The notes under the pieces are model-generated. The model had not been told where the DNA came from, searched no databases, and worked only from the letters and a program-made list of their open reading frames with translations. Positions 7,141-64,000 of a DNA stretch of 64,000 nucleotides are shown one piece after another. Each line of letters begins with the position of its first letter. Within the stretch, counting starts at the first letter, position 1. Both the position numbers and the translations under genes were made by a program. Source of the DNA: Georgenia sp. EYE_87 (GTDB lineage: Bacteria; Actinomycetota; Actinomycetes; Actinomycetales; Actinomycetaceae); the NCBI RefSeq assembly GCF_023148685.1, contig NZ_JAHXNL010000017.1, forward strand, positions 1 to 64,000, read 5' to 3'.

Positions 7141-7267
7141 CTCGCCCCCGTCTCACCTCTGGTGGGACGGACTGTGGCACGGACGCTCCGACGGGCGCAG
7201 GCGCAATCCACAGGTCACCGTTGGGTCCCCTCGAACCAGGCCGTGCCAGAACCGCAGCAGCGCACGC

Positions 7268-8764
7268 TCAGCGTGCCGGGCGGTCTCCGGTGTCGTCCGG
7301 GCCGCCGTCGGGCCCCGGGCCTCCCGCGTCGCTCTCCGGCTGGGCCGGCGCGTCGTCGACGTCCCCGCCAGCTCCGCCGTCGGCAAGCGTTCCGTCGAGC
7401 ATCGCCGCCAGCGCGGCGTCGACATCCTCCTCGGCAGCGCGGGCGGCGCGGCGGGCGGCGACGAAACCGCTGGGGTCGTCCAGCTCCTCAGGCGTGGGCA
7501 TCAGGTCCGGGTGGGACCACAGGGCGTCACGCTCCGCGGTACCCCGTTCGGCCCCGAGCGTCGCCCACAGGGTCGACGCCTCGCGCAGGCGGCGCGGACG
7601 CAGCTCGAGCCCGACGAGCGTGGCGAACGTCTGCTCCGCCGGGCCTCCGCTCGCGCGCCGACGCCGCAGCATCTCGCGCAGCGGCACGGCGTGGGGGAGG
7701 TGAGGTGCGACCGCCTGCGCGGTGACCTCCTCGACCCAGCCCTCGACCAGCGCGAGCGCCGTCTCGAGGCGCACGAGCGCGGCACGCTGCGCCGGGGACT
7801 GCTCGAGCGCGAACACCCCGCCCGAGAACGCCTCACGCAGCTGCTCCGGGTCGGTCGGGTCGATCCCGCGGACCGCCTCCTCCATCGCGTCCGTGTCGAT
7901 GGTGATCTCGCGGGCGTAGGACTCGACGATGCCGAGCAGATGCGCCCGCAGCCACGGCACCTGGGCGAAAAGTCTGGCGTGCGCGACCTCGCGGACGGCG
8001 AGGAACAGTCGCACCTCCTCCGCCGGGGCGTCCAGGCCCTCCGCGAAGTCGGCGACGTTGGCGGGCACGAGCGCCGCCGTCGGCTCCTCCACCAGCGGCA
8101 GCCCGGTGTCGGCGGTGCCGAACGCCTCGCGGGCGAGCGTGCCCACGGCCTGCCCCACCTGCATCCCGAAGACCGCGCTGCCGAGCTGGCGCAGCATCCC
8201 CTGGACCGGGCCCATCTGCGCCGCCATCGCCTGAACCTCGGGCGGCAGGTGCTCCGCCTGGGCCTCGATGGTCTCGACCAGCGCCTGGGAGACGGACGTG
8301 GCCACCGGCTCCGAGAGCCGCTTCCACGTCGGCAGCGTTCGCTCCACCCAGTCGGCGCGGCTCCACGCCTCCTGACGGCCGCCCGCGGGCCCGAGCTCCG
8401 TGGCGGTGTCCAGCCACAGGTCGGCCACGGACAGGGTGGAGCGCACGCGCTCGGCCTCGGCGGCGCTCACGGAGGGATCGCCGCCGGCGTGGGCCGTCTG
8501 GCGGGCGAGGTCGTGGGCGAGGCGCCAGTTGACCGGGTCGCCGCCGCCCGAGGCGAGCAGCTGCTGCATCTGCCCGATCATCATCATCAGCTGGTTGCGG
8601 TCCGCCGGGAGCCCGGCCGCCTGGGACATCGCCTCAGGGTCCAGACCGGACGCCCGCATCGCCCGCATCGCCTCCTCGGCGGCGGCGGGGCCCATCATCG
8701 ATCGGAGCAGCTCCTCCCAGCTGTTGGGCTCGCCGCCCTCCGGGCGGGTGGGGTCCTGACTCAT
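7268..8764 (-). CDS. DUF2342 zincin-like protein (predicted zinc-dependent metalloprotease family)
   Basis: This 498-aa protein matches the actinobacterial DUF2342 family in length and landmarks: an N-terminal Met-rich segment (MMMIGQMQQLLASGGGDPVNW), AVFGMQVGQAVGTLAREAFG, then REVAHARLF (258-266) and the C-terminal LRPRRLREASTLW block. The zincin-like motif reads R-E-x-x-H rather than H-E-x-x-H, so the first metal ligand is replaced by Arg and catalysis is doubtful. The last ~45 residues are an acidic, low-complexity Gly/Asp/Pro tail. The ATG has CAGGAG upstream. It is divergent from the PDZ-Lon protease gene, a conserved pairing in actinobacteria that suggests a common envelope-related role; this is inference. 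Confidence 0.82.
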   Translation of the reverse strand: MSQDPTRPEGGEPNSWEELLRSMMGPAAAEEAMRAMRASGLDPEAMSQAAGLPADRNQLMMMIGQMQQLLASGGGDPVNWRLAHDLARQTAHAGGDPSVSAAEAERVRSTLSVADLWLDTATELGPAGGRQEAWSRADWVERTLPTWKRLSEPVATSVSQALVETIEAQAEHLPPEVQAMAAQMGPVQGMLRQLGSAVFGMQVGQAVGTLAREAFGTADTGLPLVEEPTAALVPANVADFAEGLDAPAEEVRLFLAVREVAHARLFAQVPWLRAHLLGIVESYAREITIDTDAMEEAVRGIDPTDPEQLREAFSGGVFALEQSPAQRAALVRLETALALVEGWVEEVTAQAVAPHLPHAVPLREMLRRRRASGGPAEQTFATLVGLELRPRRLREASTLWATLGAERGTAERDALWSHPDLMPTPEELDDPSGFVAARRAARAAEEDVDAALAAMLDGTLADGGAGGDVDDAPAQPESDAGGPGPDGGPDDTGDRPAR

Positions 8765-37785: not shown

Positions 37786-38647
<862 letters not shown>

Positions 38648-50305: not shown

Positions 50306-51727
50306 ATGGCACTCCCCAGCCCTAGCTACACGATCACCCTGCGGGTGGAGGTTCCGGCGTCGCAGCGGGCGACGAGCACGGTCGTCTCGGCCGTCGCGGA
50401 GGCCGGTGCGGCGGTCATGGGGGTCGACATCGTGCACTCCTCGACGACGAAGCTGACGGTCGACGTCACGTGCGACACGGTGGACGGCGAGCACGGGGAG
50501 CGCGTGCGGGACGCGCTGAACGCCCTGGAGGGCGTGCAGGTGCTGAAGATGTCGGACTCGACGTTCCTGATGCACCTGGGCGGGAAGATCGAGGTGGCGC
50601 TGAAGGTGCCGCTGAAGACCCGGCGCGACCTGTCGCGGGCGTACACCCCGGGTGTCGCGCGGGTGTGCCTGGCGATCGCGGAGAAGCCGGAGGACGCGCG
50701 CCGGCTGACGATCAAGCGCAACACGGTCGCGGTGGTCACGGACGGCACGGCGGTGCTGGGTCTGGGGGACATCGGTCCGGCGGCTGCGCTGCCGGTGATG
50801 GAGGGCAAGGCCGCCCTGTTCAAGGAGTTCGGGCACGTCGACGCGTGGCCGGTGTGCCTGGACACCAAGGACACCGAGGAGATCATCTCGATCGTCAAGG
50901 CGATGGCACCGGTCTACGGGGGGATCAACCTCGAGGACATCTCCGCGCCGCGGTGCTTCGAGATCGAGGCGCGACTGCGCGAGGAGCTGGACATCCCGGT
51001 CTTCCATGACGACCAGCACGGCACCGCGATCGTGGTGCTGGCGGCGCTGATCAACGCGTTGAAGGTGGTCGGCAAGTCGATGGAGGAGGTGCGCATCGTC
51101 GTCTCCGGCGTCGGGGCCGCCGGCTCGGCGATCATCAAGCTGCTCAAGGCCCAGGGCGCCCGGCACATCGTGGGCTTCGGACGCGGGGGCGCCCTCCACA
51201 GGGGCGCCACCAACGGCGACGAGTACCGCCGGTGGATCGCCGAGAACACCAACGAGGAGGAGTTCACCGGGACGCTGAAGGAGGGCCTGGCGGGGGCGGA
51301 CGTCTTCATCGGCGTCTCCGCGGGCAACATCCTCACCGGCGCGGACGTGGCGACGATGAACGACGACGCGATCGTCTTCGCCCTGGCCAACCCCACCCCC
51401 GAGGTCGACCCGATCGAGGCCGGCGAGACGGCGGCCGTGGTGGCGACCGGCCGGTCGGACTACCCGAACCAGATCAACAACGTCCTGGCCTTCCCGGGCC
51501 TGTTCCGCGGGCTGCTCGACGCCGGCGCCACCCACATCTCGCCGGAGCTGCTGCGGGTGGCGGCGGTGGCGATCGCCGAGGTCGTCTCCGACGACGAGCT
51601 CAACCCGGCGTTCATCATCCCCGGCGTCTTCGACACCCGGGTGGCGGAGGCCGTGGCCGACGCCGTGCGGACCGAGGCCCAGCGCCACCTCGACGAGCAG
51701 CGCGCCGACGCCGCCGAGGTGCGCTGA
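50306..51727 (+). CDS. NAD(P)-dependent malic enzyme with ACT domain
   Basis: Malic enzyme decarboxylates malate to pyruvate and makes NAD(P)H. The 473-aa protein has an N-terminal ACT-like regulatory domain (~8-85; [28 protein letters not shown]), followed by the short bacterial malic-enzyme core: [15 protein letters not shown] with the catalytic Tyr, [13 protein letters not shown] with the catalytic Lys, [16 protein letters not shown] for divalent metal, and the NAD fold [20 protein letters not shown] domains normally bind amino acids, so allosteric control is likely. The ATG has GGAAGG eight bases upstream. It is a single-gene unit ended by a 23-bp hairpin. Confidence 0.93.
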
Positions 51728-51730
51728 CCT

Positions 51731-51780
51731 CCGGCACGACGAAGGCCCTGGCCGTGCGGCCAGGGCCTTCGTCGTGCCGG
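51731..51780. terminator. strong bidirectional terminator, malic enzyme/DoxX
   Basis: A perfect 23-bp stem (51731-51753 with 51758-51780, loop GTGC) lies four bases after the malic enzyme stop and 28 bases from the convergent DoxX stop. It is the longest hairpin in the window. Confidence 0.92.
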
Positions 51781-52564: not shown

Positions 52565-52593
52565 TTGGAAGCGTGCTTCCAACATGTGAAAAT
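52565..52593 (+). promoter_or_regulatory. uraD-uraH-uox promoter with IclR/AllR-type operator
   Basis: -35 TTGGAA (52565-52570), 17-base spacer, -10 GAAAAT (52588-52593). A perfect palindrome TTGGAAGC-GT-GCTTCCAA (52565-52582) and a third half-site GAAA (52588-52591) make the composite GGAA/TTCC/GAAA motif (52567-52591) that overlaps the whole promoter. Confidence 0.7.
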
Positions 52594-52618
52594 CTCGACG
52601 ACATCGCCGGAGGACTTC

Positions 52619-53119
52619 GTGGCCCCAGGACTCGACCGGTTCAACGCGGCCGACCCGGCGGAGGCCAGGGCGCTGCTGCTGGCGTGCGCGACCGTCCCGC
52701 GCTGGGCCGAGGAGGTCGTGCGGGGCAGGCCGTACGCCACGGTCGCCGACGCCGTCGCCGCCGCCCGTGCCGCGGCCGACCCGTGGACGGACGAGGAGGT
52801 CGACGCCGCGCTGGCGCGCCACCCCCGGATCGGGGAGCGGCCGGAGGGGGAGGCGGCCGACGCCGAGCACTCCCGTCGCGAGCAGGCAGGCGTGGCCGGC
52901 ATGCACGAGGATCTCGCCCGTCGGCTCGCCGAGGGCAACCGCGCCTACGAGGAACGCTTCGGGCACGTCTTCCTCATCCGGGCCGCCGGCCGCGGGCCCG
53001 AGGAGATCCTCGCCGCGCTCGACGAACGCCTGACCCACGACCGCGCCACGGAGCGCCGGACCGCCGCGGAGCAGCTCCGGGAGATCGCCGTCCTCAGACT
53101 CCAGGGAGAGCTCTCATGA
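52619..53119 (+). CDS. uraD: OHCU decarboxylase
   Basis: UraD turns 2-oxo-4-hydroxy-4-carboxy-5-ureidoimidazoline into (S)-allantoin, the third step of urate breakdown. The 166-aa helical protein has the family landmarks LDRFNAADPAEARALLLACATVPRWAEEV, LARHPRIGERP (catalytic His in the HPRIG motif) and YEERFGHVFLIRAAGRGPEEIL, close to the usual ~165 aa. I start at GTG 52619, which has GGAGG five bases upstream; the earlier TTG 52565 and GTG 52586 lie inside the operator/promoter. It overlaps uraH by four bases and opens the urate operon. The usual partner enzymes follow directly. Confidence 0.93.
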   Translation: MAPGLDRFNAADPAEARALLLACATVPRWAEEVVRGRPYATVADAVAAARAAADPWTDEEVDAALARHPRIGERPEGEAADAEHSRREQAGVAGMHEDLARRLAEGNRAYEERFGHVFLIRAAGRGPEEILAALDERLTHDRATERRTAAEQLREIAVLRLQGELS

Positions 53120-53454
53120 CGTCGCACATCACCACCCACGTCCTCGACGCCGTCACCGGCGTCCCCGCCGCCGGCGTCGGGCTTCGGCTCTCGCGCCACC
53201 ACGCCGACCGGGTGACCGAGGTCGCCGCCGGCGTCACCGACCAGGACGGGCGCAACCGCGAGCTTGGCCCGGAGCGGCTCGAGGCGGGCACCTACCGCCT
53301 CGTCTTCGCCACCGGGGAGTACTTCGCCGCCCACGGCCGGCGCACGTTCTACCCCCAGGTCACGATCGACTTCGTCGTCGAGGAGGGGCAGGACCACTAC
53401 CACGTGCCGATCCTGCTCAGCCCGTTCGCCTACTCGACGTACCGCGGAAGCTGA
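53116..53454 (+). CDS. uraH: 5-hydroxyisourate hydrolase
   Basis: UraH opens the ring of 5-hydroxyisourate to give OHCU. The 112-aa transthyretin-like protein starts SHITTHVLDAVTGVPAAGVGL with the catalytic His in the THVLD strand, keeps the conserved Arg region (DQDGRNRELG) and ends in the diagnostic YRGS tetrapeptide (109-112). It is coupled to uraD by an ATGA overlap. Product order UraD-UraH-Uox in the operon lets the unstable intermediates be processed together. Assembly as a homotetramer is known for the family. Confidence 0.95.
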   Translation: MTSHITTHVLDAVTGVPAAGVGLRLSRHHADRVTEVAAGVTDQDGRNRELGPERLEAGTYRLVFATGEYFAAHGRRTFYPQVTIDFVVEEGQDHYHVPILLSPFAYSTYRGS

Positions 53455-53510
53455 CCGTCCGCCGCACGCCTCCCGTCCGTCCGCCGCACCACCCATCGAA
53501 GGAGCGAGAA

Positions 53511-54470
53511 ATGAGCGAGACCCTCACCGACCCGGCGGCCTCCGGCGCCCCCAGGAGCGACGGCTCGATCGTGCTGGGCGAGAACCAGTACGGCAAGGCC
53601 GAGGTGCGGCTGGTCAAGGTGGACCGGGACCAGCCGCGCCACCGCATCACCGACCTCTCGGTGACCTCCCAGCTGCGCGGCGACTTCACGGTGGCGCACA
53701 CCGAGGGCGACAACTCCCCGGTCGTGGCCACCGACACCCAGAAGAACACCGTCTTCGCCCTCGCCAAGGACGGCATCGGCTCTCCCGAGGAGTTCGCGAT
53801 CCGCCTCTCGGAGCACTTCACCACCTCCTTCGACTGGGTCACCGGGGGGCGTTGGGGCGTCAAGCAGTACACCTGGGAGCGCATCCGCACCTCGCTCCTC
53901 AACGACGCGGCGGGCGGCGAGCACAACCACTCCTTCGTCAAGGGCGGCACGGAGACGCGCACCGCCGTCGTCCAGCGGGACGGCGACGAGGTGTTCGTCG
54001 TGGCCGGGCTGGAGGACCTGTCGGTCCTGAAGTCCACCGGGTCGGAGTTCAAGGGCTTCCCGCGCGACCGCTACACGACGCTGGAGGAGACGGACGACCG
54101 GATCCTGGCCACGTCGGTGACCGCGCGGTGGCGCTACCTGAGCGACGACGTCGACTTCAACGCCGTCTACGGCGACGTGCGCCGCATCCTGCTCGAGACG
54201 TTCGCGGACGTGCACTCCTACGCCCTGCAGCAGACGCTGTACCAGATGGGCGCCCGGGTGCTCGAGGCGCACCCGGAGATCGGCGAGATCAAGTTCTCGA
54301 TGCCGAACCTGCACCACTTCCTCGTGGACCTCAAGCCCTTCGGCCTGGAGAACCCGAACGAGGTGTTCTACGCCGCGGACCGGCCCTACGGCCTCATCGA
54401 GGCGGAGGTCCGGCGTTCGGAGGTCCAGCCTGAGCCCCGGGCCTGGGCCACCGTGACCGGCTTCTGCTGA
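53511..54470 (+). CDS. uox: urate oxidase (factor-independent)
   Basis: Uricase oxidises urate to 5-hydroxyisourate with O2 and releases H2O2; no cofactor is needed. The 319-aa protein has two tunnelling-fold halves. Visible landmarks are LGENQYGKAEVRLVKV with the catalytic Lys, VVATDTQKNTVFALA with the catalytic Thr, the SFVKGG loop, FKGFPRDRYTTLEETDDRILATSV with the substrate Arg, and NLHHFLVDLKPFGLENPNEVFYAADRPYG at the C-terminus. The N-terminal 17 residues are an unconserved extension. GAAGGAG lies upstream of the ATG. The H2O2 it makes may be removed by the Bcp peroxiredoxin encoded in the neighbouring operon (inference). Confidence 0.96.
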   Translation: MSETLTDPAASGAPRSDGSIVLGENQYGKAEVRLVKVDRDQPRHRITDLSVTSQLRGDFTVAHTEGDNSPVVATDTQKNTVFALAKDGIGSPEEFAIRLSEHFTTSFDWVTGGRWGVKQYTWERIRTSLLNDAAGGEHNHSFVKGGTETRTAVVQRDGDEVFVVAGLEDLSVLKSTGSEFKGFPRDRYTTLEETDDRILATSVTARWRYLSDDVDFNAVYGDVRRILLETFADVHSYALQQTLYQMGARVLEAHPEIGEIKFSMPNLHHFLVDLKPFGLENPNEVFYAADRPYGLIEAEVRRSEVQPEPRAWATVTGFC

Positions 54471-54578
54471 CCGGCCCGCGGGACGGCGGACGGGCGTGGG
54501 TCTGCGTCCGGAGTCGTACGGTCGAGCGGGGGCTGCCGCTGCGGCTGCGCCTTTGACGGCGACGACGTCCGGGCGGCC

Positions 54579-54627
54579 GAGCTGCTCGGCGCGCGCTGAG
54601 GGCTGCTCAGCGCGCGCTGAGCAGCTC
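54579..54627. terminator. hairpin between uox and the IclR gene
   Basis: A 19-bp stem with one mismatch (54579-54597 with 54609-54627) and an 11-base loop spans the IclR stop codon. It should stop transcription from both sides. Confidence 0.7.
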
Positions 54628-55359
54628 GCCGGCGACCCGCTGGGCCGCCTCGTGGAGCACGGGCACGGCCTTCTCGCCGAACTCGAAGGTGACGCGCGCC
54701 GCCGGCCCGGAGACGGAGACGGCCGAGGGGGTGGGGGCGTCCGGGACGGCGACGGCGAAGCACCGCACGCCGATCTCCTGCTCGCCGTCGTCGACGGCGT
54801 AGCCGCGCTGGCGGATCCTGGCGAGCTCGACGAGGAGATCCTCGACGTTCGTGATCGAGAGGTCCGTGGCCGCCGGCATGCCCGTGCGCGCCACGATCTC
54901 CCGCACCGTGGCGTCGGGAAGCTGCGCGAGCACCATCTTCCCCACGCCGGTGCAGTGGCAGTACACGCGGCGGCCGACCTCGGTGAACATGCGCATCGAG
55001 TGCGAGGACGACGCCTGGGCGACGTAGACGGCCATGTCACGGTCGATCATGGCCATGTTCGCCGTCTCGCCGAGCTCCCGCGCCACGCGCTCGAGGTGGG
55101 GGCGGGCCCCGGCCCCCAGCTGGCGGCCGGCGCTCTCGCCGAGGCGGATCAGCCGCGGCCCGAGGGTGTAGCGGCGCGAGGGCAGCTGCCGCGCGTAGCC
55201 GCGGTTGACCAGGGTCCGCATGAGACGGTGGATCGTCGGCAGCGGCAGGCCGGTGCTGGTGGCCAGCTCGCTCAGCGTGGCGTCGCCGCCCACGTCCGTC
55301 AGGATCTCGAGCAGGTCGATGGCCCGGTCCACGGACTGGACCCCGGTGTTCTCAGCCAT
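54607..55359 (-). CDS. IclR-family regulator (AllR-like) of ureide/glyoxylate genes
   Basis: This 250-aa regulator has an N-terminal winged helix (QSVDRAIDLLEILTDVGGDATLSELATSTGLPLPTIHRLMRTLVNRGY) and a C-terminal GAF-like ligand domain with the IclR pattern CTGVGKMVLAQLP, and DDGEQEIGVRCFAVAVPD. Position in the middle of urate/glyoxylate genes fits AllR, which in E. coli and Streptomyces represses allantoin genes and responds to allantoate or glyoxylate-type effectors. ATG 55359 has GGGAGG upstream. A copy of its presumed operator lies in the shared divergent region with the DUF6986 gene, so it probably represses itself too. Confidence 0.9.
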   Translation of the reverse strand: MAENTGVQSVDRAIDLLEILTDVGGDATLSELATSTGLPLPTIHRLMRTLVNRGYARQLPSRRYTLGPRLIRLGESAGRQLGAGARPHLERVARELGETANMAMIDRDMAVYVAQASSSHSMRMFTEVGRRVYCHCTGVGKMVLAQLPDATVREIVARTGMPAATDLSITNVEDLLVELARIRQRGYAVDDGEQEIGVRCFAVAVPDAPTPSAVSVSGPAARVTFEFGEKAVPVLHEAAQRVAGELLSAR

Positions 55360-55416
55360 CCTTGCCTCCCGCCGTTCGGGGCGTCGCCCGGTGCCTCGCG
55401 GTCCCGCCGACCGTGC

Positions 55417-55441
55417 GGAACCAGTCTTCCACATGTCGAAA
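55417..55441. promoter_or_regulatory. IclR/AllR-type operator, IclR/DUF6986 divergent region
   Basis: Composite site with GGAA-N6-TTCC (55417-55430) followed by A-CAT-N3-GAAA; the inner palindrome is TTCCA-CATGT-CGAAA (55427-55441). It lies in the 116-bp gap between the divergent genes. Confidence 0.7.
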
Positions 55442-55475
55442 GTTCAGCGCCAGATCCGGAAGGAAACTCCTGACC

Positions 55476-56768
55476 ATGCGTGTGCCCGGCCGCAGCTCCG
55501 ACGATCCACCCACGAGAACCACGCTGGACGAAGCCGCCCTCCGCGCCGTCGAGGATCTCCTCGCACCCGTGGACGCCCGCCTCGAGCGGGACTATCCGGG
55601 CGACGACGTGAGCCGTCAGCCCGTCCACACCGTCTACGTCCCGGCCGACCGCTACCACGCCGGGCTCGCCGGGGAGTGGGGCGAGCAGGCGCAGGCCGCC
55701 CTCGCCCGGGCGGGCGGGGTCGAGGCGGTGCTCGACGCGGCCGGGGTGCCCCCGGAGCTCCGTGACGCGGTCGCCGACCGGGTGCGTGCCAAGCTCGACC
55801 GCGAGCCGGTCGAGGACCTGCGCATCGACCTCGAGGACGGCTACGGCGACCACGGCGACGCCGAGGACGAGGTGGTGGTCGCCGCAGCGCGCGCCCTGCG
55901 GAACGAGCTCGAGCGCGGGAGCGCCACACCCTTCGTCGGGATCCGGTTCAAGAGCTTCGAGCGGCCTACCAGGCGACGGGGGCTGCGGACCCTCGACCTG
56001 TTCCTCACCACGCTCCTCGAGAGCGGGGACCTTCCGGACGGGCTCCTGCTCACCCTGCCGAAGGTCACCGCCGTCGAGCAGGTCGAGGCGATGGTGACCG
56101 TCTGCGCCGGCATCGAGCGGGCCCACCGGCTCCCCGCGGGGCGGCTCGGGTTCGAGGTGCAGATCGAGACCCCGCAGGCGATCCTCGGCGCCGACGGCAC
56201 GGCTCTCGTGGCCCGCATGGTGCACGCCGGGCAGGGGCGCGTCACGGGCCTGCACTACGGCACCTACGACTACTCGGCCTCCCTCGGCATCGCCGCGGCG
56301 CAGCAGTCCATGGAGCACCCCGCGGCGGACCACGCCAAGGCGGTCATGCAGCTGGCGGCCGCGGGGACGGGCGTGCGCCTCTCCGACGGGTCGACGAACG
56401 TGCTCCCGGTGGGGGCGGCGGAGCAGGTGCGGGCGGCCTGGGCGCTGCACGCCCGGCTCGTGCGCAGGTCCCTCGAGCGCGGCTACTACCAGGGCTGGGA
56501 CCTCCACCCCGCGCACCTGCCGAGCCGCTTCGCGGCCACGTACGCCTTCTACCGCGACGGCATGCCGGCCGCGGCCGACCGCCTGCGCGCGTACCTCGCC
56601 CGCGAGGAGGGGGCGGTGATGGACGAGCCCGCGACGGCGCGCGCGCTGGCCTGGTATCTCCAGCGCGGCCTGGACTGCGGCGCGGTCGGCGAGGACGAGC
56701 TCGTCGTGCTCGGCGTCGACGTCTCGGGACTGGGGCGGCTGCTCCGCCGGCAGGGAGCCGAGGGCTGA
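55476..56768 (+). CDS. DUF6986 / CitE-like (HpcH/HpaI aldolase superfamily) protein, function unknown
   Basis: This 430-aa protein has the CitE/HpcH-like TIM-barrel marks: RIDLEDGYG (116-124), GIRFKSFE, LTLPKV (193-198), FEVQIET (226-232, acidic metal ligand E227 or E231), GLHYGTYDYSASLGI (258-272, second acidic ligand D265) and GWDLHPAHLPSR (340-351), similar to the lyase loop that closes over CoA or oxoacid substrates. Relatives cleave or form C-C bonds of malyl-CoA, citramalyl-CoA or 2-oxo acids such as glyoxylate. Its place, divergent from the AllR-like gene and between urate and glyoxylate operons, suggests a step in ureide or glyoxylate metabolism. The reaction is not known. ATG 55476 follows GGAAGGA by eleven bases. 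Confidence 0.75.
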   Translation: MRVPGRSSDDPPTRTTLDEAALRAVEDLLAPVDARLERDYPGDDVSRQPVHTVYVPADRYHAGLAGEWGEQAQAALARAGGVEAVLDAAGVPPELRDAVADRVRAKLDREPVEDLRIDLEDGYGDHGDAEDEVVVAAARALRNELERGSATPFVGIRFKSFERPTRRRGLRTLDLFLTTLLESGDLPDGLLLTLPKVTAVEQVEAMVTVCAGIERAHRLPAGRLGFEVQIETPQAILGADGTALVARMVHAGQGRVTGLHYGTYDYSASLGIAAAQQSMEHPAADHAKAVMQLAAAGTGVRLSDGSTNVLPVGAAEQVRAAWALHARLVRRSLERGYYQGWDLHPAHLPSRFAATYAFYRDGMPAAADRLRAYLAREEGAVMDEPATARALAWYLQRGLDCGAVGEDELVVLGVDVSGLGRLLRRQGAEG

Positions 56769-56886
56769 GGCTCCGCCCGGCAGGAGGGCCGAGGCTGTAG
56801 CCAGGGCGGGACGGCCGAGGCTGGATCCCCGCGTGGAGGCGCGGTCAGGGCGCCCGGGGCGGCCCCGAAGAAAGCCGCGGGACGGG

Positions 56887-56915
56887 CCCCGGCGAGGGGT
56901 TGACCCTCACCGGGG
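56887..56915 (+). terminator. hairpin overlapping the hyi -35 box
   Basis: A 12-bp stem with one mismatch (56887-56898 with 56904-56915, loop GTTGA). It follows the DUF6986 gene by 118 bases and its loop and right arm contain the -35 TTGACC of the next promoter. Confidence 0.5.
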
Positions 56916-56963
56916 TGGTCTCTAGGCTTTCGACACAAGGAAGGTTGTTTTCACATCCTGAAA
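56900..56963 (+). promoter_or_regulatory. hyi-glxR-gcl-glxK-allB promoter with IclR/AllR-type operator
   Basis: -35 TTGACC (56900-56905), 17-base spacer, -10 TAGGCT (56923-56928). The composite operator GGAA-N6-TTTC-A-CAT-N3-GAAA lies at 56939-56963, just downstream of the predicted start, with the perfect dyad TTTCA-CATCC-TGAAA at 56949-56963. Confidence 0.75.
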
Positions 56964-56974
56964 GAGAGCCGACG

Positions 56975-57805
56975 ATGGCCAGCCCTGTGCCTTACACCGT
57001 GAACTGCTCGATACTGCTGACCGACCTCCCGCTCGGCGAGCGCCCGGCCGCGGCACGGGCCGCCGGCTTCGCGGGCATCGAGCTGTGGTGGCCGTTCGAG
57101 ACGTCCACGCCGGAGGCCGACGAGGTCGACGCGCTGGTCCGGACGGTCGAGCGGGCCGGCGTCCAGCTGACGGGCCTGAACTTCAACGCCGGGGACATGC
57201 CCGGCGGAGACCGCGGCCTCGTCTCGTGGCCCGGCCGCGAGCAGGAGCTGCGCGTCAACCTCGACGTCGTCACCGCCATCGGGGAGCGCACGGGGTGCCG
57301 CGCTTTCAACGCCCTCTACGGCAACCGGGTCGACGGGGCCGACCCGACCCGCCAGGACGACCTCGCCGCGGAGAACCTCCACCTCGCCGCCCAGGCCGTC
57401 GCCCGCATCGGCGGCACCGTCCTTCTCGAGCCCGTCTCCGGCGCCCCGGCCTATCCCCTGAAGACCTCCGCCGACGCCGTCGCCGTCATCGACCGCGTCG
57501 CGTCCGAGCACGGCTCCACCAACATCGGGCTGCTCCTCGACGTCTACCACCTGTCGGTCAACGGCGCCGACGTGGACGCGGACATCGCCGAGCACCGCGA
57601 CCGGATCGCCCACGTGCAGATCGCCGACGCCCCCGGGCGCGGCGCGCCCGGCAGCGGGGAGCTCCCGATCACCCGGTGGATCGAGGACCTGCGCGCCGGT
57701 GGGTACGCCGGGCCCGTCGGCCTGGAGTACAAGACCGGCGACGCGGACCCCTTCGCCTGGCTGCCCCGCGAGGAGCGGGGCGCCGAGGCCCCCGTCGCGC
57801 GCTGA
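56975..57805 (+). CDS. hyi: hydroxypyruvate isomerase (TIM-barrel)
   Basis: Hyi interconverts hydroxypyruvate and tartronate semialdehyde in the glycerate branch of glyoxylate use. The 276-aa AP endonuclease-2-like TIM barrel begins YTVNCSILLTDLPLGERPAAARAAGFAGIELWWPF, carries the metal-site Glu in VLLEPVSG and LLLDVYHLSVNG, and ends with GYAGPVGLEYKTGDADPFAWL. The usual length is ~260. ATG 56975 follows an AGAGAG purine stretch. It is the first gene of the glyoxylate operon and lies 12 bases after an IclR-type operator. The family call is from motifs and context, since other sugar isomerases share the fold. Confidence 0.88.
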   Translation: MASPVPYTVNCSILLTDLPLGERPAAARAAGFAGIELWWPFETSTPEADEVDALVRTVERAGVQLTGLNFNAGDMPGGDRGLVSWPGREQELRVNLDVVTAIGERTGCRAFNALYGNRVDGADPTRQDDLAAENLHLAAQAVARIGGTVLLEPVSGAPAYPLKTSADAVAVIDRVASEHGSTNIGLLLDVYHLSVNGADVDADIAEHRDRIAHVQIADAPGRGAPGSGELPITRWIEDLRAGGYAGPVGLEYKTGDADPFAWLPREERGAEAPVAR

Positions 57806-57838
57806 CCGACCCCGTCCACGAACCAGAAGGATCCCCGG

Positions 57839-58735
57839 ATGACTCGCATCGCCTTCATCGGTCTCGGCATCATGGGCAGCCCCATGGCCGTGCACCTCCA
57901 GAACGCCGGCCACGACGTCGTCGGCCACAACCGCAGCCCGGAGAAGACCGCGCGGCTGGTCGAGGCGGGCGGCACGGCCGCCGCCTCCGTGGCCGAGGCC
58001 GTCGCCGACGCCGACGTCGTCGCGCTCATGGTCCCCGACTCTCCCGACGTGACCGAGGTGCTCACCGGCGAGGGGGGCGTGCTCGCCTCCGCCCGTCCCG
58101 GTACCCTGATCATCGACTTCTCCACCATCCGCCCCGACGTCACCGTCGAGCTCGCAGCGCGGGCCAGGGAGCAGGGCTTCCGGATCCTGGACGCCCCGGT
58201 CTCCGGAGGCGAGGCCGGCGCGAAGAACGCCGCCCTGTCGATCATGGTCGGCGGCCCGGCCGAGGACTTCGAGGCCGCCAGGCCGATCCTCGACGTCGTC
58301 GGCCGCACCGTCGTCCATGTCGGGCCGGCCGGCTCCGGACAGACGGTCAAGGCCGCCAACCAGCTCATCGTGGCCGGCAACATCGGCCTGCTGGCGGAGG
58401 CCATCGTCTTCCTCGAGGCCTACGGCGTCGACACCGCGGCCGCCGTGACGGTGCTCGGCGGCGGGCTCGCGGGCTCGGCCGTGCTCGAGCAGAAGGCGGA
58501 GAAGATGCTGAACCGCTCCTTCGAGCCGGGCTTCCGCATCGACCTGCACCACAAGGACCTGGGCATCGTCACCTCCGCCGCCCGCGAGGCCGGCGTGACC
58601 ATCCCGCTCGGTGCCACGGTCGCCCAGCTCATGCAGAGCGCCCGCTCCAACGGCGAGGGCTCGCTGGACCACTCGGCCCTGTTCCGCACCGTCGAGCGGC
58701 TCGCCGGCCGTGACCGCGGCGCTCGCGACGACTGA
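57839..58735 (+). CDS. glxR: tartronate semialdehyde reductase (2-hydroxy-3-oxopropionate reductase)
   Basis: GlxR reduces tartronate semialdehyde to D-glycerate with NAD(P)H. The 298-aa protein is a beta-hydroxyacid dehydrogenase: dinucleotide loop FIGLGIMGSPMAVHLQNAGHDVVGHNRS (5-32), substrate motif DAPVSGGEAGAKNAALSIMVGG (~120-141) and catalytic Lys in GQTVKAANQLIVAGNI (~172-178). These match 2-hydroxy-3-oxopropionate reductase rather than 3-hydroxyisobutyrate dehydrogenase mainly through its operon position between hyi and gcl. AGAAGGA lies eight bases before the ATG. Confidence 0.92.
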   Translation: MTRIAFIGLGIMGSPMAVHLQNAGHDVVGHNRSPEKTARLVEAGGTAAASVAEAVADADVVALMVPDSPDVTEVLTGEGGVLASARPGTLIIDFSTIRPDVTVELAARAREQGFRILDAPVSGGEAGAKNAALSIMVGGPAEDFEAARPILDVVGRTVVHVGPAGSGQTVKAANQLIVAGNIGLLAEAIVFLEAYGVDTAAAVTVLGGGLAGSAVLEQKAEKMLNRSFEPGFRIDLHHKDLGIVTSAAREAGVTIPLGATVAQLMQSARSNGEGSLDHSALFRTVERLAGRDRGARDD

Positions 58736-58771
58736 CCTGCCTCCTGACCGACGACGATCCTGGAGACCGAC

Positions 58772-60547
58772 ATGCCCCGAATGAGAGCCGTGGACGCCGC
58801 CGTCGCCATCCTCGAGAAGGAGGGCGCGACCCAGGCCTTCGGCGTGCCCGGCGCCGCGATCAACCCGTTCTACGACGCCATGCGCAGGCACGGCGGCATC
58901 CGGCACGTCCTCGCCCGCCACGTCGAGGCCGCCTCCCACATGGCCGACGGGTACACCCGCGCCGTGGCCGGCAACATCGGCATCTGCGTCGGCACGTCCG
59001 GCCCCGCGGGCACCGACATGATCACTGGCCTGTACGCCGCGTGGGCCGACTCGGTGCCGATCCTGTGCATCACCGGGCAGGCCCCCGTGGCGAAGCTCGA
59101 CAAGGAGGACTTCCAGGCCGTCGACATCGCCTCCATCGCGGCGCCGGTGACCAAGCTGGCGAAGACCGTGCTCGAGGCCGCCCAGGTGCCGGGCGTCCTC
59201 GCCCAGGCCTTCCAGCTCATGCGCTCGGGCCGCCCGGGGCCCGTCCTGATCGACCTGCCGATCGACGTCCAGCTGACCGAGATCGAGTTCGACCCCGACA
59301 CCTACGCCCCGCTCCCGGTCCTCCGGCCCGAGGCCACCCGCGCGCAGGTCGCCCGGGCGCTGGACATGCTCCAGGCCGCCGAGCGCCCGCTGATCGTCGC
59401 CGGCGGCGGGATCGTCAACGCCGGCGCCGAGGATCTCCTGGTCACCCTGGCCGAGACCCTCGACGTCCCGGTGGTGCCCACCCTCATGGGCTGGGGCGTC
59501 ATCCCGGACGACCACCCGCTCGCGGCGGGCATGGTCGGCATCCAGACGTCCCGGCGCTACGGCAACGCCACCTTCCTCGAGTCCGACCTCGTGCTCGGCG
59601 TCGGCAACCGGTGGGCCAACCGCCACACCGGCGGCCTGGACGCCTACCGTCGTGGCCGCACCTTCGTCCACGTGGACATCGAGCCCACGCAGATCGGCCG
59701 CGTCTTCGCCCCCGACTACGGCATCGTCTCCGACGCGAGGGCCTTCCTGGCCCTCGCCGTCGAGATCGCGACGGAGCGCCGCGCCGCGAGCGAGCTTCCC
59801 GACCGCACCCGATGGGTGGCGCGGTGCGCCGGGCGCAAGGGCACGCTGCTGCGCCGGACGCACTTCACCGACGTCCCGATCAAGCCCCAGCGCGTGTACC
59901 AGGAGATGAACCGGGCGTTCGGCCGGGACACCGTCTACGTCACCACGATCGGGCTGTCCCAGATCGCCGGCGCACAGTTCCTGCACACCTACGCCTCGCG
60001 CCACTGGATCAACGCCGGCCAGGCCGGGCCGCTCGGCTGGACCGGACCCGCGGCGCTCGGGGTGGCCACCGCGCGGCCCGACGCCGAGGTCGTCGCCCTC
60101 TCCGGCGACTACGACTTCCAGTTCATGCTCGAGGAGCTCGCCGTCGGCGCCCAGCACCACCTGCCGTACGTCCACGTGGTGGTCAACAACGCCTACCTCG
60201 GGCTGATCCGCCAGTCCCAGCGGGCGTTCGAGATGGACTACCACGTCTCCCTGGCCTTCGAGAACATCAACTCCGCCGAGACCGACGGGTACGGCGTCGA
60301 CCACGTCAAGGTCGCCGAGGCGCTGGGCTGCAGGGCCATCCGGGTCAAGGACCCGGAAAGGCTCCAGCCGGCCTTCGCCGAGGCGCGCGCCCTGGCCGCC
60401 GAGCACCGGGTCCCGGTGGTCGTCGAGGTCATCCTCGAGCGCGTCACCAACATCGCCATGGGCGCCGAGCTCGACGGCGTCAACGAGTTCGAGGACCTCG
60501 CCATCAGCGCCGAGGACTCCCCGACCGCGCTGGCACTGCTTGACTGA
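58772..60547 (+). CDS. gcl: glyoxylate carboligase (tartronate semialdehyde synthase)
   Basis: Gcl joins two glyoxylates to tartronate semialdehyde and CO2 using thiamine diphosphate. The 591-aa enzyme has the three ThDP domains. The first contains [14 protein letters not shown] where V51 replaces the usual catalytic Glu, a known hallmark of Gcl. The ThDP motif is [21 protein letters not shown]...VVNNAYLG (~445-480). The C-terminus, [18 protein letters not shown], is also Gcl-specific. It lies 37 bases after glxR. This enzyme plus GlxR, Hyi and GlxK make the full glycerate pathway, so glyoxylate from allantoin can serve as a carbon source. Confidence 0.96.
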
Positions 60548-60551
60548 GCCC

Positions 60552-61697
60552 ATGAAACTGCTCCTCGCGCCGGACAAGTTCAAGGGCTCGCTGACCGCGG
60601 CCGAGGTCGCCGCCCACCTCGCGGCCGGCTTCCGGCGTGCGCTGCCGGGGGTCGAGATCGACGAGCTGCCCGTGGCGGACGGGGGCGAGGGAACGGTGCA
60701 GGCCGCCCTTGCGGCGGGCTTCTCGCCGGTCACCCTCACGGCCACCGGACCGCTCGGCGAACCGGTCACCACCCGGTACGCCGTCCGGGACCGCACCGCC
60801 GTCGTCGAGATGGCGGCGGTGACGGGCCTCGAGATGGTCGAACCCGACGACGTCACGGCCCGCCGGGCCACCTCGCGCGGGCTCGGCGAGCTGATCGCCC
60901 ACGCGCTCGACCATGGCGCCACCACTGTCGTCGTCGGCGTGGGCGGCTCCGCCAGCACCGACGGCGGGGCCGGCATGCTCGCCGCCCTGGGCGCCCGCCT
61001 CGCCGGTCCCGACGGCGAGCTCCCTGACGGGGGCGACGCGCTCCGCGCGGTCACGACCGTCGACCTCGCCGGTCTGCACCCGCGCCTGGCGACGGCGGAG
61101 CTGGTCCTGGCCTCCGATGTCGACAACCCCCTCCTCGGGCCCCGCGGCGCCGCCGCCGTGTACGGACCCCAGAAGGGCGCCGACCCGGTCGCCGTCGCCG
61201 ACCTCGAGGCCTCGCTCGCCGCCTGGGTGAGCGCGCTCGAGCGCGCGGGAGCCGACCGGGCGCGGGAACGGGCCGACGCCCCGGGTGCCGGCGCGGCCGG
61301 GGGAGTGGGCTATGCCTGCCTCCTCCTCGGAGCGACGCGCCGGCCCGGCGTCGACGTCGTCCTCGACCTGGCCAGCTTCGACCGTCGCCTCGCCGGGGTG
61401 GACCTCGTCGTCACCGGCGAGGGCAGCCTCGACGAGCAGTCGCTGGCAGGGAAGACGCCGATGGGCGTGGCCGAGGCCGCCGCCACGCACGCCGTGCCCA
61501 CCGTCGCGGTCTGCGGCCGGGCCACCCTCACCCGGGAGCAGGCGCAGGCGGCCGGCATCGAGGCCGTCCACGCGCTCACGGACCTGGAGCCCGACGTCGC
61601 ACGCTGCATCGCGAACGCCGGCGAGCTCCTGGAGCGGCTCGCCGCGCGGGTCGCCGACGAGCGGTTCGCCCGCCAGCAGGAAAGGGTGGACCGGTGA
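60552..61697 (+). CDS. glxK: glycerate 2-kinase
   Basis: GlxK phosphorylates D-glycerate to 2-phosphoglycerate, feeding glycolysis. The 381-aa protein begins [20 protein letters not shown], the family's signature opening, and has [36 protein letters not shown] and [23 protein letters not shown], all typical of the GckA/GlxK (type 1) glycerate kinases. The ATG 60552 comes four bases after the gcl stop; a TTG at 60540 would start inside gcl. The gene is coupled to allB by a GTGA overlap. The product is 2-phosphoglycerate in this family, rather than 3-phosphoglycerate. Confidence 0.93.
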
Positions 61698-63073
61698 ACG
61701 GTCCCGACCCGGTCGTCGCCCCGCCGCGGGACGGGGCCGGCGTGCGTCACGACCTCGTCGTGCGCGCCGCCCGGGCGGTCACGCCCGAGGGTCTGCGCGC
61801 GGTGGAGGTCGGTGTCCGCGACGGCGTGATCGCCGCCGTCGAGCCGCTCGGCGCCGGGCTCGCGGCCGACGCCGTGGTCGACCTCGCCGGCGACGAGGTG
61901 CTGCTGCCCGGGCTGGTCGACTCCCACGTGCACGTCAACGAGCCCGGCCGCACCGAGTGGGAGGGCTTCGAGTCCGCCACCCGAGCGGCCGCGGCAGGCG
62001 GCGTCACGACGATAATCGACATGCCGCTGAACTCCGTGCCGCCCACCACCGACGTCGCGGCGCTGGAGGCCAAGCGCTCCGTGGCCCGGCGCAGCTCCTT
62101 CGTGGACGTCGGCTTCTGGGGCGGCGCCGTGCCCGGCAACACCGGCGACCTGCGCCCGCTGCACGACGCCGGGGTCTTCGGGTTCAAGTGCTTCCTGATC
62201 GACTCGGGCGTGCCCGAGTTCGGCCACCTCGACCCCGACGAGCTCGAGCGGGACCTGACCGAGCTCGCGAGCTTCGACGGTCTGATGATCGTCCACGCCG
62301 AGGACCCCGGCGTCATCGGCTCCGCCCCGCACGCCCACGGCCGCCGTTACGCGGACTTTCTCGGCTCCCGCCCGCCGCAGGCGGAGGAGGCGGCCGTCGC
62401 CACCGTCATCGAGGCCGCTCGCCGCACCGGCGCCCGCGTCCACGTCCTGCACCTCTCCGACGCCGGCGCGCTGCCGATGATCGCGGCCGCCCGTGCCGAG
62501 GGCATCCGGCTGACGGTCGAGACCTGCCCGCACTACCTGACCCTCGCCGCCGAGGGGGTGCCCGACGGCGCCACCGCCTTCAAGTGCTGCCCGCCCATCC
62601 GTGAGGAGGCCAACCGGGAGGCGCTCTGGCAGGGGCTGCTGGACGGCACGATCGACATCGTCGTCACGGACCACTCGCCGTCGACCCTCGACCTCAAGGC
62701 CCTGGACACCGGCGACTTCGGGCAGGCGTGGGGCGGCGTCGCCTCGCTCCAGCTCGGGCTCGCGGCCGTGTGGACCGAGGCGCGCGCCCGCGGCGTCGGG
62801 CTCGAGCAGGTGGTGCGATGGATGTCGGCCGGGCCCGCCGCCCTGGCCGGGCTCGCCACCAAGGGTGCGATCGCCGTCGGGAAGCAGGCGGACCTGGCGG
62901 TCCTCGCACCGGACGAGGAGCTCGACGTCGATCCGGCCGGGCTCCATCACCGCAACCCGATCACGCCGTACGCCGGGCGCCGGCTCGCCGGCGTGGTGCG
63001 TCGCACCCTGCTGCGCGGGCGGGACGTGACCGGCGAGCCGGCGGGTTCCCTGCTGCGCCGGGGCGAGGCCTGA
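61694..63073 (+). CDS. allB: allantoinase
   Basis: AllB opens the hydantoin ring of allantoin to allantoate. The 459-aa cyclic amidohydrolase shows the metal-binding [31 protein letters not shown] block (~77-107), [13 protein letters not shown] with the carboxylated Lys region, [17 protein letters not shown] and TDHSPS with the catalytic Asp. HVNEPGR and FKCFL favour allantoinase over dihydropyrimidinase. The first ~20 residues are an unconserved extension. GTG 61694 overlaps the glxK stop by one base. Enzymes that use allantoate are not in the window, so they must be encoded further on or replaced. Confidence 0.94.
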
Positions 63074-63129
63074 CGGACCATGTCCGGAGCACGACGAGCA
63101 CGACCCACCCACCATCGAAGGAGAGCCGC

Positions 63130-63606
63130 ATGACGAGGCTGCCCCCCGGCGACACCGCCCCCGACTTCACCCTCCCGACCCCGGACGGCACCACCGTCTC
63201 GCTCGCCGGGCTGCGCGCGAGCGCCGAGAGCGGCGTGATCGTGTACTTCTACCCGAAGGCCTCGACCCCGGGCTGCACCACCGAGGCCTGCGACTTCCGC
63301 GACAACCTGGCCTCCCTCGCGAGCGCGGGCTACGCCGTCGTCGGCATCTCGGCGGACCCGGTCGAGGACCTCCGGGCCTTCGCCGACGCCGAGCGGCTCA
63401 CCTTCCCGCTCGCGTCCGACGCGGACCACGCCGTCGCGGACGCCTACGGCGCGTGGGGGCCGAAGACGCTGAACGGGCGCACGTTCGACGGCGTGCACCG
63501 CTCGACGTTCGTGGTCGACACCGGCGGCGTGGTACGGGAGGCCTACTACGACGTCGAGGCGCGGGGGCACGTGGCCGCGCTGCGCGAGTCGCTCGTCAGC
63601 GTCTGA
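63130..63606 (+). CDS. bcp: peroxiredoxin Bcp/PrxQ
   Basis: This 158-aa thiol peroxidase reduces H2O2 and organic peroxides. Peroxidatic C49 and resolving C54 are five apart in TPGCTTEACDFRDNL, the alpha-2 type PrxQ pattern, and the N-terminus LPPGDTAPDFTLPTPDG is standard. GAAGGAG lies eight bases before the ATG. It follows allB by 56 bases on the same strand with no clear promoter between, so it is likely the last gene of the glyoxylate operon. That would place H2O2 removal next to uricase, which makes H2O2; this link is inference. Confidence 0.92.
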   Translation: MTRLPPGDTAPDFTLPTPDGTTVSLAGLRASAESGVIVYFYPKASTPGCTTEACDFRDNLASLASAGYAVVGISADPVEDLRAFADAERLTFPLASDADHAVADAYGAWGPKTLNGRTFDGVHRSTFVVDTGGVVREAYYDVEARGHVAALRESLVSV

Positions 63607-63613
63607 GCCCGGG

Positions 63614-63627
63614 CCGACGCGCGTCGG
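63614..63627 (+). terminator. possible terminator after bcp
   Basis: CCGACGC-GCGTCGG is a perfect 14-base palindrome eight bases after the bcp stop, followed by TTCTC. The stem is short. Confidence 0.35.
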
Positions 63628-63707
63628 TTCTCGACGCCGACCTGCGACCGCGTCCGTGGCAGGTGGCGGGCAACCGTCCGCGGCTGCACCTCCCGCCGGC
63701 CGCAGCG

Positions 63708-63772
63708 TTGACCCGGGTGACCGCCCTCACTACTGTTTCCACCAGGAAGAGTGTTCGTTCCGCATCGTGAAA
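63708..63772 (+). promoter_or_regulatory. aceB promoter with IclR/AllR-type operator
   Basis: -35 TTGACC (63708-63713), 17-base spacer, -10 TACTGT (63731-63736), the same layout as hyi. The operator (GGAA at 63745, then TTCCG-CATCG-TGAAA at 63758-63772) again lies ~22 bases after the -10. Confidence 0.75.
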
Positions 63773-63784
63773 GAGAGACGCATC

Positions 63785-64000
63785 GTGGCAACTCCCGACG
63801 GCCTGACGATCACCGGCGAGATGAACGAGCGGTACGAGGAGGTGCTCACCCCCGCGGCGCTCGACCTCATCGCCTCGCTGCACCGCCAGCTCAACGGGCG
63901 CCGCCTCGAGCTGCTCGAGGCGCGGCGCCGGCGGGTCGCCGACCTCGCCGACAGCGGCACGCTGGACTTCCTGCCCGAGACCAGGCACATCCGCGAGGAC
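63785..64000 (+). CDS. aceB: malate synthase A, N-terminal part (3' end outside window)
   Basis: Malate synthase condenses glyoxylate with acetyl-CoA. Only 72 codons are present from GTG 63785 to the window end. They read LTPAALDLIASLHRQLNG, then RRLELLEARRRRVADLADSGTLDFLPETRHIRED, which matches the conserved start of malate synthase A (LH-N-R-LL-R-RQ-DFLPET-IR). The GTG lies 13 bases after a TTCC/GAAA operator and is preceded by the AGAGAG purine stretch seen before hyi, so expression is probably co-regulated with the glyoxylate operon. No stop codon is seen; the frame runs off the end of the window. Confidence 0.9.
   Translation, partial: MATPDGLTITGEMNERYEEVLTPAALDLIASLHRQLNGRRLELLEARRRRVADLADSGTLDFLPETRHIRED

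Follow-up and report, generated by a model that had tools for sequence, protein, structure and literature searches.

A 64,000-nt stretch of the Georgenia sp. EYE_87 genome (contig NZ_JAHXNL010000017.1, positions 1 to 64,000; referred to here as the window) carries a gene cluster for urate, allantoin and glyoxylate metabolism, and four short sites within it, located in front of uraD, the divergent iclR/DUF6986 pair, hyi and aceB, are probably the operators of a single AllR-type regulon. The IclR-family protein encoded at 54607-55359 would act on them through an operator composed of tandem dyads and would be released by glyoxylate. The sites themselves, their rarity in the genome, their conservation in relatives, their geometry, their overlap with promoters at hyi and aceB, and the co-occurrence of regulator and operator are established below.

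Sites in the window and across the genome

Sites at 52567-52591 (S1, uraD), 55417-55441 (S2, iclR/DUF6986), 56939-56963 (S3, hyi) and 63745-63772 (S4, aceB) had been put forward in an original prediction made from the sequence of the window, and all four were verified at these coordinates. Pfam assignments of the site-bearing genes (OHCU decarboxylase for uraD, IclR, DUF6986, AP_endonuc_2 for hyi and the malate synthase N-terminus) confirmed that the sites precede the genes named. The elements they were said to share held up in part: CAT-N3-GAAA is not general, since the uraD site reads CAT-N2-GAAA. The element common to all four is TTYCR-N5-YGAAA, which had also been recognised as an inner dyad and of which the window holds exact copies only at these sites. 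Its halves are referred to as boxes 2 and 1 and the GGAA outside it as box 3; the spacing between GGAA and TTYC is 6, 6, 6 and 9 bases at S1, S2, S3 and S4, respectively. Operator and promoter features are as follows.

52567-52570, + strand: S1 box 3, GGAA, 6 bases ahead of the inner dyad
52577-52591, + strand: S1 inner dyad TTCCAACATGTGAAA, 5′ of uraD
55417-55420, + strand: S2 box 3, GGAA, at N6
55427-55441, no strand assigned: S2 inner dyad TTCCACATGTCGAAA, between the divergent iclR and DUF6986 genes; best match of the outside-trained matrix described below
56900-56928, + strand: hyi promoter, TTGACC-17-TAGGCT
56928-56942, + strand: S3 outer dyad TTTCGACACAAGGAA, boxes 4 and 3, its centre 21 bp from the inner dyad centre
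56949-56963, + strand: S3 inner dyad TTTCACATCCTGAAA, 5′ of hyi
63708-63736, + strand: aceB promoter, TTGACC-17-TACTGT
63737-63748, + strand: S4 box 4, TTCCA (63737-63741), and displaced GGAA (63745-63748), at aceB
63758-63772, + strand: S4 inner dyad TTCCGCATCGTGAAA, 5′ of aceB

The whole genome (4,348,284 bases, or 4.35 Mb, in 38 contigs) was searched with these patterns, each pattern read backwards serving as the control. The composite GGAAN{6,9}TTYCRNNNNNYGAAA, that is GGAA-N6..9-TTYCR-N5-YGAAA, has four matches, which are the predicted sites, and none in the reversed control, while the inner dyad has 12 strand-matches at 10 places against 1+1 strand-matches in the control. The concern that the motif might be common at unrelated promoters was not borne out. 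In addition to the four window sites, the ten places comprise one dyad 5′ of an LctP-type permease gene about 8 kb past the aceB site (C9:71839-71853; L015 8840-8854), a tandem pair with centres 19 bp apart before a gene for an NCS2/PbuX-type (xanthine/urate-type) permease (C6:26232 and 26251; L016 6233-6266), two copies in a thiolase/3-hydroxyacyl-CoA dehydrogenase cluster with an IclR gene of its own (C23:117467 and 121640; L017 6468-6482 and 10641-10655), and one match at C33:67947 that was judged to be chance, lying inside an apparent reading frame. By this placement, 7 of the 10 places are at genes fitting urate, allantoin, glyoxylate or (probably) glycolate metabolism. The inner dyad is unchanged at both C23 sites, where GGAA is found five rather than six bases outside the core. 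The permease pair, on another contig, consists of two complete dyads and makes a cleaner tandem operator than any other observed in the genome. Within the window, GGAA-N5..9-TTYC was found 9 times against 2.7 expected, a number reached by 2 of 100 shuffles.

Conservation and the cognate regulator

For comparison, we fetched 75 loci with the window's IclR protein as query, of which 56 (916,460 bp; regulator identity at least 56%) were analysed and 19 (L074-L090, L092, L093; regulator identity at most 41%) were dropped from the site counts. The dyad in the form TTYCR-N5-YGRAA has 103 copies in the 56 loci, which, including many congeners, are not independent of one another; 94 of the copies (92 distinct sequences) lie within -260 to +20 of target genes. 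These 94 sites and the four in the window belong to the group 1 operator type, WTT-11-AAW. The dyad stands 5′ of 19/21 copies of hyi, 15/16 of uraD, 6/7 of lctP, 18/25 of aceB, 39/58 of iclR-type genes, 7/21 of allB, 3/16 of permease genes and 1/18 of glxK, and was not found before gcl (0/19), glxR (0/20), uricase (0/16), hiuH (0/16), glcD (0/24) or bcp (0/5). It thus sits at the front of transcription units. The company of the regulator gene varies: several Isoptericola and Georgenia loci, and Krasilnikoviella, have it together with uricase, hyi, gcl and allB; Promicromonospora and Myceligenerans have it with aceB and glcD, to which lctP is often added; in Streptomyces it accompanies allB, and several Nocardia combine it with hyi, uraD and uricase. 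Because one and the same set of genes carries the site in many relatives, it looks like the mark of a real regulon.

A sequence-only matrix was built from 54 sites of other genera; Georgenia was excluded, as were all sites at aceB and those with fewer than three GGAA letters in box 3. On the genome of EYE_87, where 150 of 191 candidates were scored, it gave four matches at E ≤10, the top three being S2, S3 and S4. Nine genomes of the genus, this one included, gave 30 matches at E ≤1, of which 24 lie at iclR, hyi, uraD, aceB or permease genes; the other six are off-target or ambiguous and include the sole matches of G022 (0.69), which also has no regulator ortholog, and of G066. Among 61 genomes of the family, with thresholds of E ≤0.2 for the matrix and, by our own choice, E ≤1e-60 for orthologs, a match was present in 7/7 genomes with an IclR ortholog and in 8/54 without one (Fisher p = 1.5e-5, uncorrected for the shared ancestry of these genomes). 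In each of the seven, a match lies no more than 0.6 kb from the IclR gene, upstream of it in five and past its 3′ end in two (G029, G058). A family-wide search with exact patterns was set aside: 31/61 genomes matched, mostly at single scattered places, and controls were similar in several. Rarity, conservation at the same genes, co-occurrence and adjacency to iclR together give good support to the earlier proposal of a single regulon under the IclR/AllR-like gene.

The window regulator has both domains of the IclR family, with 70 bits against PF09339 (cut-off 22) and 130.9 bits against PF01614 (cut-off 24). It scores below the cut-offs of the BhcR equivalog NF045644, its best NCBIfam match (182.3 bits, cut-off 350), the PcaR/PcaU/PobR subfamily TIGR02431 (157.2 bits, cut-off 284.75), the E. 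coli IclR equivalog NF008601 (138.1 bits, cut-off 380) and the E. coli AllR equivalog NF007548 (98.1 bits, cut-off 406). An alignment was made with the orthologs of 17 of the 56 loci; residue numbers are our own count on aligned sequences. The motif PTIHR in the region of the recognition helix is retained in 15/17 orthologs, and the C23 IclR protein, 23% identical to the window regulator, differs there. Counterparts of the effector-contacting residues of E. coli IclR, as listed in the available part of PMC11323563, are kept in 17/17 (Asp212 and Ser239), 16/17 (Ser241) and 13/17 (Gly160) orthologs. According to the same portion of that paper, glyoxylate weakens DNA binding by IclR, AllR and BhcR. 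Here too glyoxylate would most likely be the releasing effector, our best guess because the regulon joins the allantoin and probably the glycolate routes at glyoxylate.

Operator architecture and promoter overlap

The three half-sites of the original prediction are not the general design, as a fourth box in relatives completes an outer dyad 21 bp from the inner one. An exact GGAA is found at N6 outside the inner dyad in 40/94 of the relatives' sites (28 and 12 on its two sides) and at N9 in 8/94, all of them aceB sites; no other spacing between 0 and 15 is represented more than 3 times, both sides together. Counted by genus-by-gene group, a box 3 reading GGAA, AGAA or GAAA is at N6 in 23/33, the runner-up being N5 in 6. 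Aligned sites contain a further element, TNYCR, that forms with box 3 a second 15-bp dyad at the distance of 21 bp. At the offset predicted for this box 4, YCR is present in 43/56 non-aceB sites with box 3, compared with 58/896 at other offsets. In sequence and mutual spacing, boxes 3 and 4 match the inner dyad, and they occur as well at the sites of iclR, of the permease and of Streptomyces allB; the outer boxes of lctP sites are weak. Relatives' aceB sites have TTY.R at box 4 in 16/19, GGAA at N9 in 8/19 and box 3 at N6 in 1/19 (2 counting either side), and this geometry, with box 4 kept at -21 and GGAA shifted by 3 bp, occurs also in Promicromonospora and congeners.

Two good boxes had been overlooked in the window, TTTCG at hyi (56928-56932) and TTCCA at aceB (63737-63741), each exactly 21 bases ahead of the left box of the inner dyad. 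The hyi site has all four boxes, the uraD and iclR/DUF6986 sites have boxes 3, 2 and 1, and the aceB site has boxes 4, 2 and 1 with its GGAA 3 bp out of register. S1 and S2 look three-boxed because box 4 is degenerate there, reading TGCAC and GCCGA, respectively. Tandem dyads 18-22 nt apart are found at S3 (21 bp) and at the permease gene (19 bp), and the outer dyad is incomplete at S1, S2 and S4; the three-box pattern GGAA-N6-TTYC is present at S1, S2 and S3, with N9 at S4, and the fourth box is kept in relatives. Based on these comparisons, we propose that the full operator consists of two tandem 15-bp dyads, TTYCR-N5-YGRAA, the inner strongly conserved, the outer degenerate and often just GGAA. 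The C23 sites have N5 and three of the four AllR-type operators have N6, and therefore the register of the outer dyad may insulate paralogous IclR regulators that recognise a common core. That spacing would work as a code in this way, with the aceB geometry giving malate synthase an induction threshold of its own, is a tentative and somewhat doubtful idea.

At hyi and aceB the operator overlaps the promoter. Near-identical promoters had been noticed at two of the genes, and TTGACC-17-TANNNT is exact at both of these, with the inner dyad starting 20 (hyi) and 21 (aceB) bases after the -10 element, which box 4 touches. A TTGACC-like -35 element, 17-18 bases, TANNNT and the operator follow one another at 18/19 hyi and 13/19 aceB sites of relatives. 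If transcription starts 7 bases downstream of the -10, as assumed here, the inner dyad would extend from about +15 to +29, a likely position for blocking initiation. Occupation by two dimers is plausible from the arrangement of the boxes: two AllR-like dimers would lie side by side, as a tetramer, on one face of the DNA, with dyad centres 21 bp, or two helical turns, apart. On the hyi and aceB promoters these dimers would span the DNA from the -10 to about +29, including the transcription start, and would likely repress by blocking RNA polymerase. Glyoxylate would release the repressor, and the joint response would comprise urate oxidation, allantoinase, the Gcl/Hyi/GlxR/glycerate kinase route, malate synthase, and the LctP-type and xanthine/urate-type permeases.

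Other readings of the boxes were weighed against the tandem-dyad operator. For three-box IclR operators, Suvorova and Gelfand proposed alternative dimerisation (PMC8222616, available in part), whereby boxes 1 and 2 would form a group 1 palindrome, boxes 2 and 3 (GGAA-N6-TTCC) a group 2 palindrome, and dimers would choose between them; the original prediction comes near to this view. S1 and S2, having just three good boxes, would suit such a scheme, GGAA-N6-TTYC matches the group 2 consensus, and the same source predicts three-box sites for 32 orthologous groups; however, box 4 lies at the exact mirror position in the 43/56 relatives' sites counted above, it is present at S3 and S4, and two complete dyads precede the permease gene of this genome, so that we consider this scheme unlikely here. 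It is less probable still that an IclR dimer binds the inner dyad alone and that GGAA and box 4 belong to another regulator, the promoter or the early transcript. Such a division would account for the contact of box 4 with the -10 at hyi and aceB, for the relatives' aceB sites with GGAA at N9 and for the weak outer boxes at lctP, but not for the fact that boxes 3 and 4 repeat the sequence and spacing of the inner dyad and do so at iclR, permease and Streptomyces allB sites as well.

Chance resemblance of AT-rich promoter segments within a GC-rich genome can practically be dismissed, since the exact composite occurs 4 times against 0 and many genera conserve the motif at the same genes. What speaks for chance is that looser forms of the motif are no commoner than their controls: with up to two mismatches the dyad is found 50 times in the window against 62.3 expected, and TTYCR-N5-YGGAA has 10 strand-matches genome-wide against 10 in the reversed control. 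Eight of the nine places of this GGAA-ending form are opposite-strand readings of TTYCR-N5-YGAAA places; the ninth, C37:150803, is in a tRNA-Ala gene and was judged to be chance. The signal resides in the exact composite and in its conservation among relatives, not in looser forms. Along with the results for these forms, further observations count against a tandem-dyad regulon of AllR type. S1, S2 and the lctP site are without a recognisable box 4, TTGACC-17/18-TANNNT occurs at 1/11 uraD and 0/6 lctP sites of relatives, and none of the 14 DUF6986 genes in the 56 loci is directly preceded by a dyad; in the two relatives inspected, a malic-enzyme gene separates the two. The E-values of the matrix are modest (0.0035 for S2, 0.31 for S3, 0.37 for S4), its fourth match at C9:72213 (E 0.46) is probably chance, lying by eye in an rRNA leader, and among the candidates scored it missed the S1, lctP and permease sites. 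G039 has five matrix matches and no ortholog at the chosen threshold. Finally, the effector pocket has Val rather than Ala at position 161 and a hydrophobic patch unlike that of E. coli IclR; therefore, the effector may be a compound other than glyoxylate.

Gene cluster and related regulators

The genes of the cluster, assigned with Pfam and NCBIfam, are arranged as follows.

52619-54470, + strand: uraD, hiuH (HIU hydrolase) and uricase, urate to allantoin
54607-55359, - strand: IclR-family regulator of 250 aa, the probable cognate regulator (AllR-type), also on the basis of orthologs and of helix and effector residues
55476-56768, + strand: DUF6986 protein, HpcH/HpaI-like, with weak similarity to malyl-CoA lyase
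56975-63073, + strand: hyi-type gene, glxR, gcl, glycerate kinase and allB, glyoxylate to phosphoglycerate, plus allantoinase
63785-64000, + strand: aceB (malate synthase), extending beyond the window end

The gene that follows aceB encodes a glcD-like FAD oxidase; lctP, which has a site to itself, lies about 8 kb further. The hyi product scores under the NCBIfam cut-off for hydroxypyruvate isomerase (231 vs 353 bits). The genome, about 99% complete, carries allB; allantoicase (PF03561), detected in 4/6 comparison genomes, and AllC (TIGR03176), detected in 8/14 control genomes, were not found in it, so that no gene was assigned to the conversion of allantoate into glyoxylate.

DUF6986 is part of the gene set, at 55476-56768 in the window, with positions 7169-8425 and 8422-9858 of L020 and 8366-9847 of L019 also concerned. 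A malic-enzyme gene lies between the site-bearing iclR and DUF6986 in Georgenia thermotolerans and an Isoptericola, which suggests that the DUF6986 protein would make malate or a malyl-type compound from glyoxylate; in the window the malic-enzyme gene (50306-51727) sits elsewhere, without an exact dyad. We found no paper on DUF6986 in the open-licence literature. After the malic-enzyme gene, at about 51731-51780, there is a long GC-rich inverted repeat, CGGCACGACGAAGGCCCTGGCC...GGCCAGGGCCTTCGTCGTGCCG, that looks terminator-like when read by eye. An isolated GGAA-N5-TTCC inverted repeat, GGAATGGTCTTCC, lies away from the cluster at 38159-38171.

The closest parallel comes from Streptomyces. Navone et al. 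(2015, AEM 81:6649; cited in PMC12772271) reportedly described a Streptomyces coelicolor AllR regulon in which AllR controls allantoin genes. IclR proteins adjoining allB in seven Streptomyces loci (L044-L049, L054), which we take to be the published AllR, are 62-64% identical to the window regulator; the allB site has tandem dyads 21 bp apart, as here, in 6/7 of these loci, and aceB is about 1.6 to 6.3 kb away in 4/7. Compared with this arrangement, the Georgenia cluster adds urate oxidation, DUF6986 and the Gcl/Hyi route, together with the permease and lctP sites.

The operator design is mostly familiar. For the IclR family, the available part of the 2021 study by Suvorova and Gelfand (PMC8222616) describes the WTT-11-AAW motif class, to which the core seen here belongs, tandem dyads 18-22 nt apart in 94 orthologous groups, and three-box sites; the aceB variant with displaced GGAA was not met in that part. 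E. coli AllR and IclR share with the window regulator the family, the pathway (allantoin, glyoxylate) and most oxygen-contacting effector residues, but its scores are far below the cut-offs of their equivalogs, and the E. coli AllR motif KTTGGAAWAWTWTTCCAAC (PMC8222616, Table 1, from the part available) has the GGAA-TTCC orientation, unlike the inner dyad here. Paracoccus BhcR, in the portion of PMC11323563 available, is likewise an IclR-family protein whose DNA binding is lowered by glyoxylate, with a branched residue at position 161 (Ile in BhcR, Val here); it differs in controlling the beta-hydroxyaspartate cycle, with an activating role proposed in vivo. In the accessible text of PMC4606968, allR is the name of an unrelated enzyme. 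In the available parts of the open-licence literature we found no mention of a urate-glyoxylate-DUF6986 regulon in these genera or of the displaced aceB variant.

Our results yield a model, open to experiment, of the regulon and operator behind purine and glyoxylate catabolism in many genera of actinobacteria. The model predicts a glyoxylate signal and draws the uncharacterised DUF6986 enzyme family into glyoxylate metabolism. Its natural variants, with four boxes at hyi, three at uraD and iclR, and a displaced GGAA at aceB, make binding of IclR proteins as two dimers or as alternative dimers open to test.

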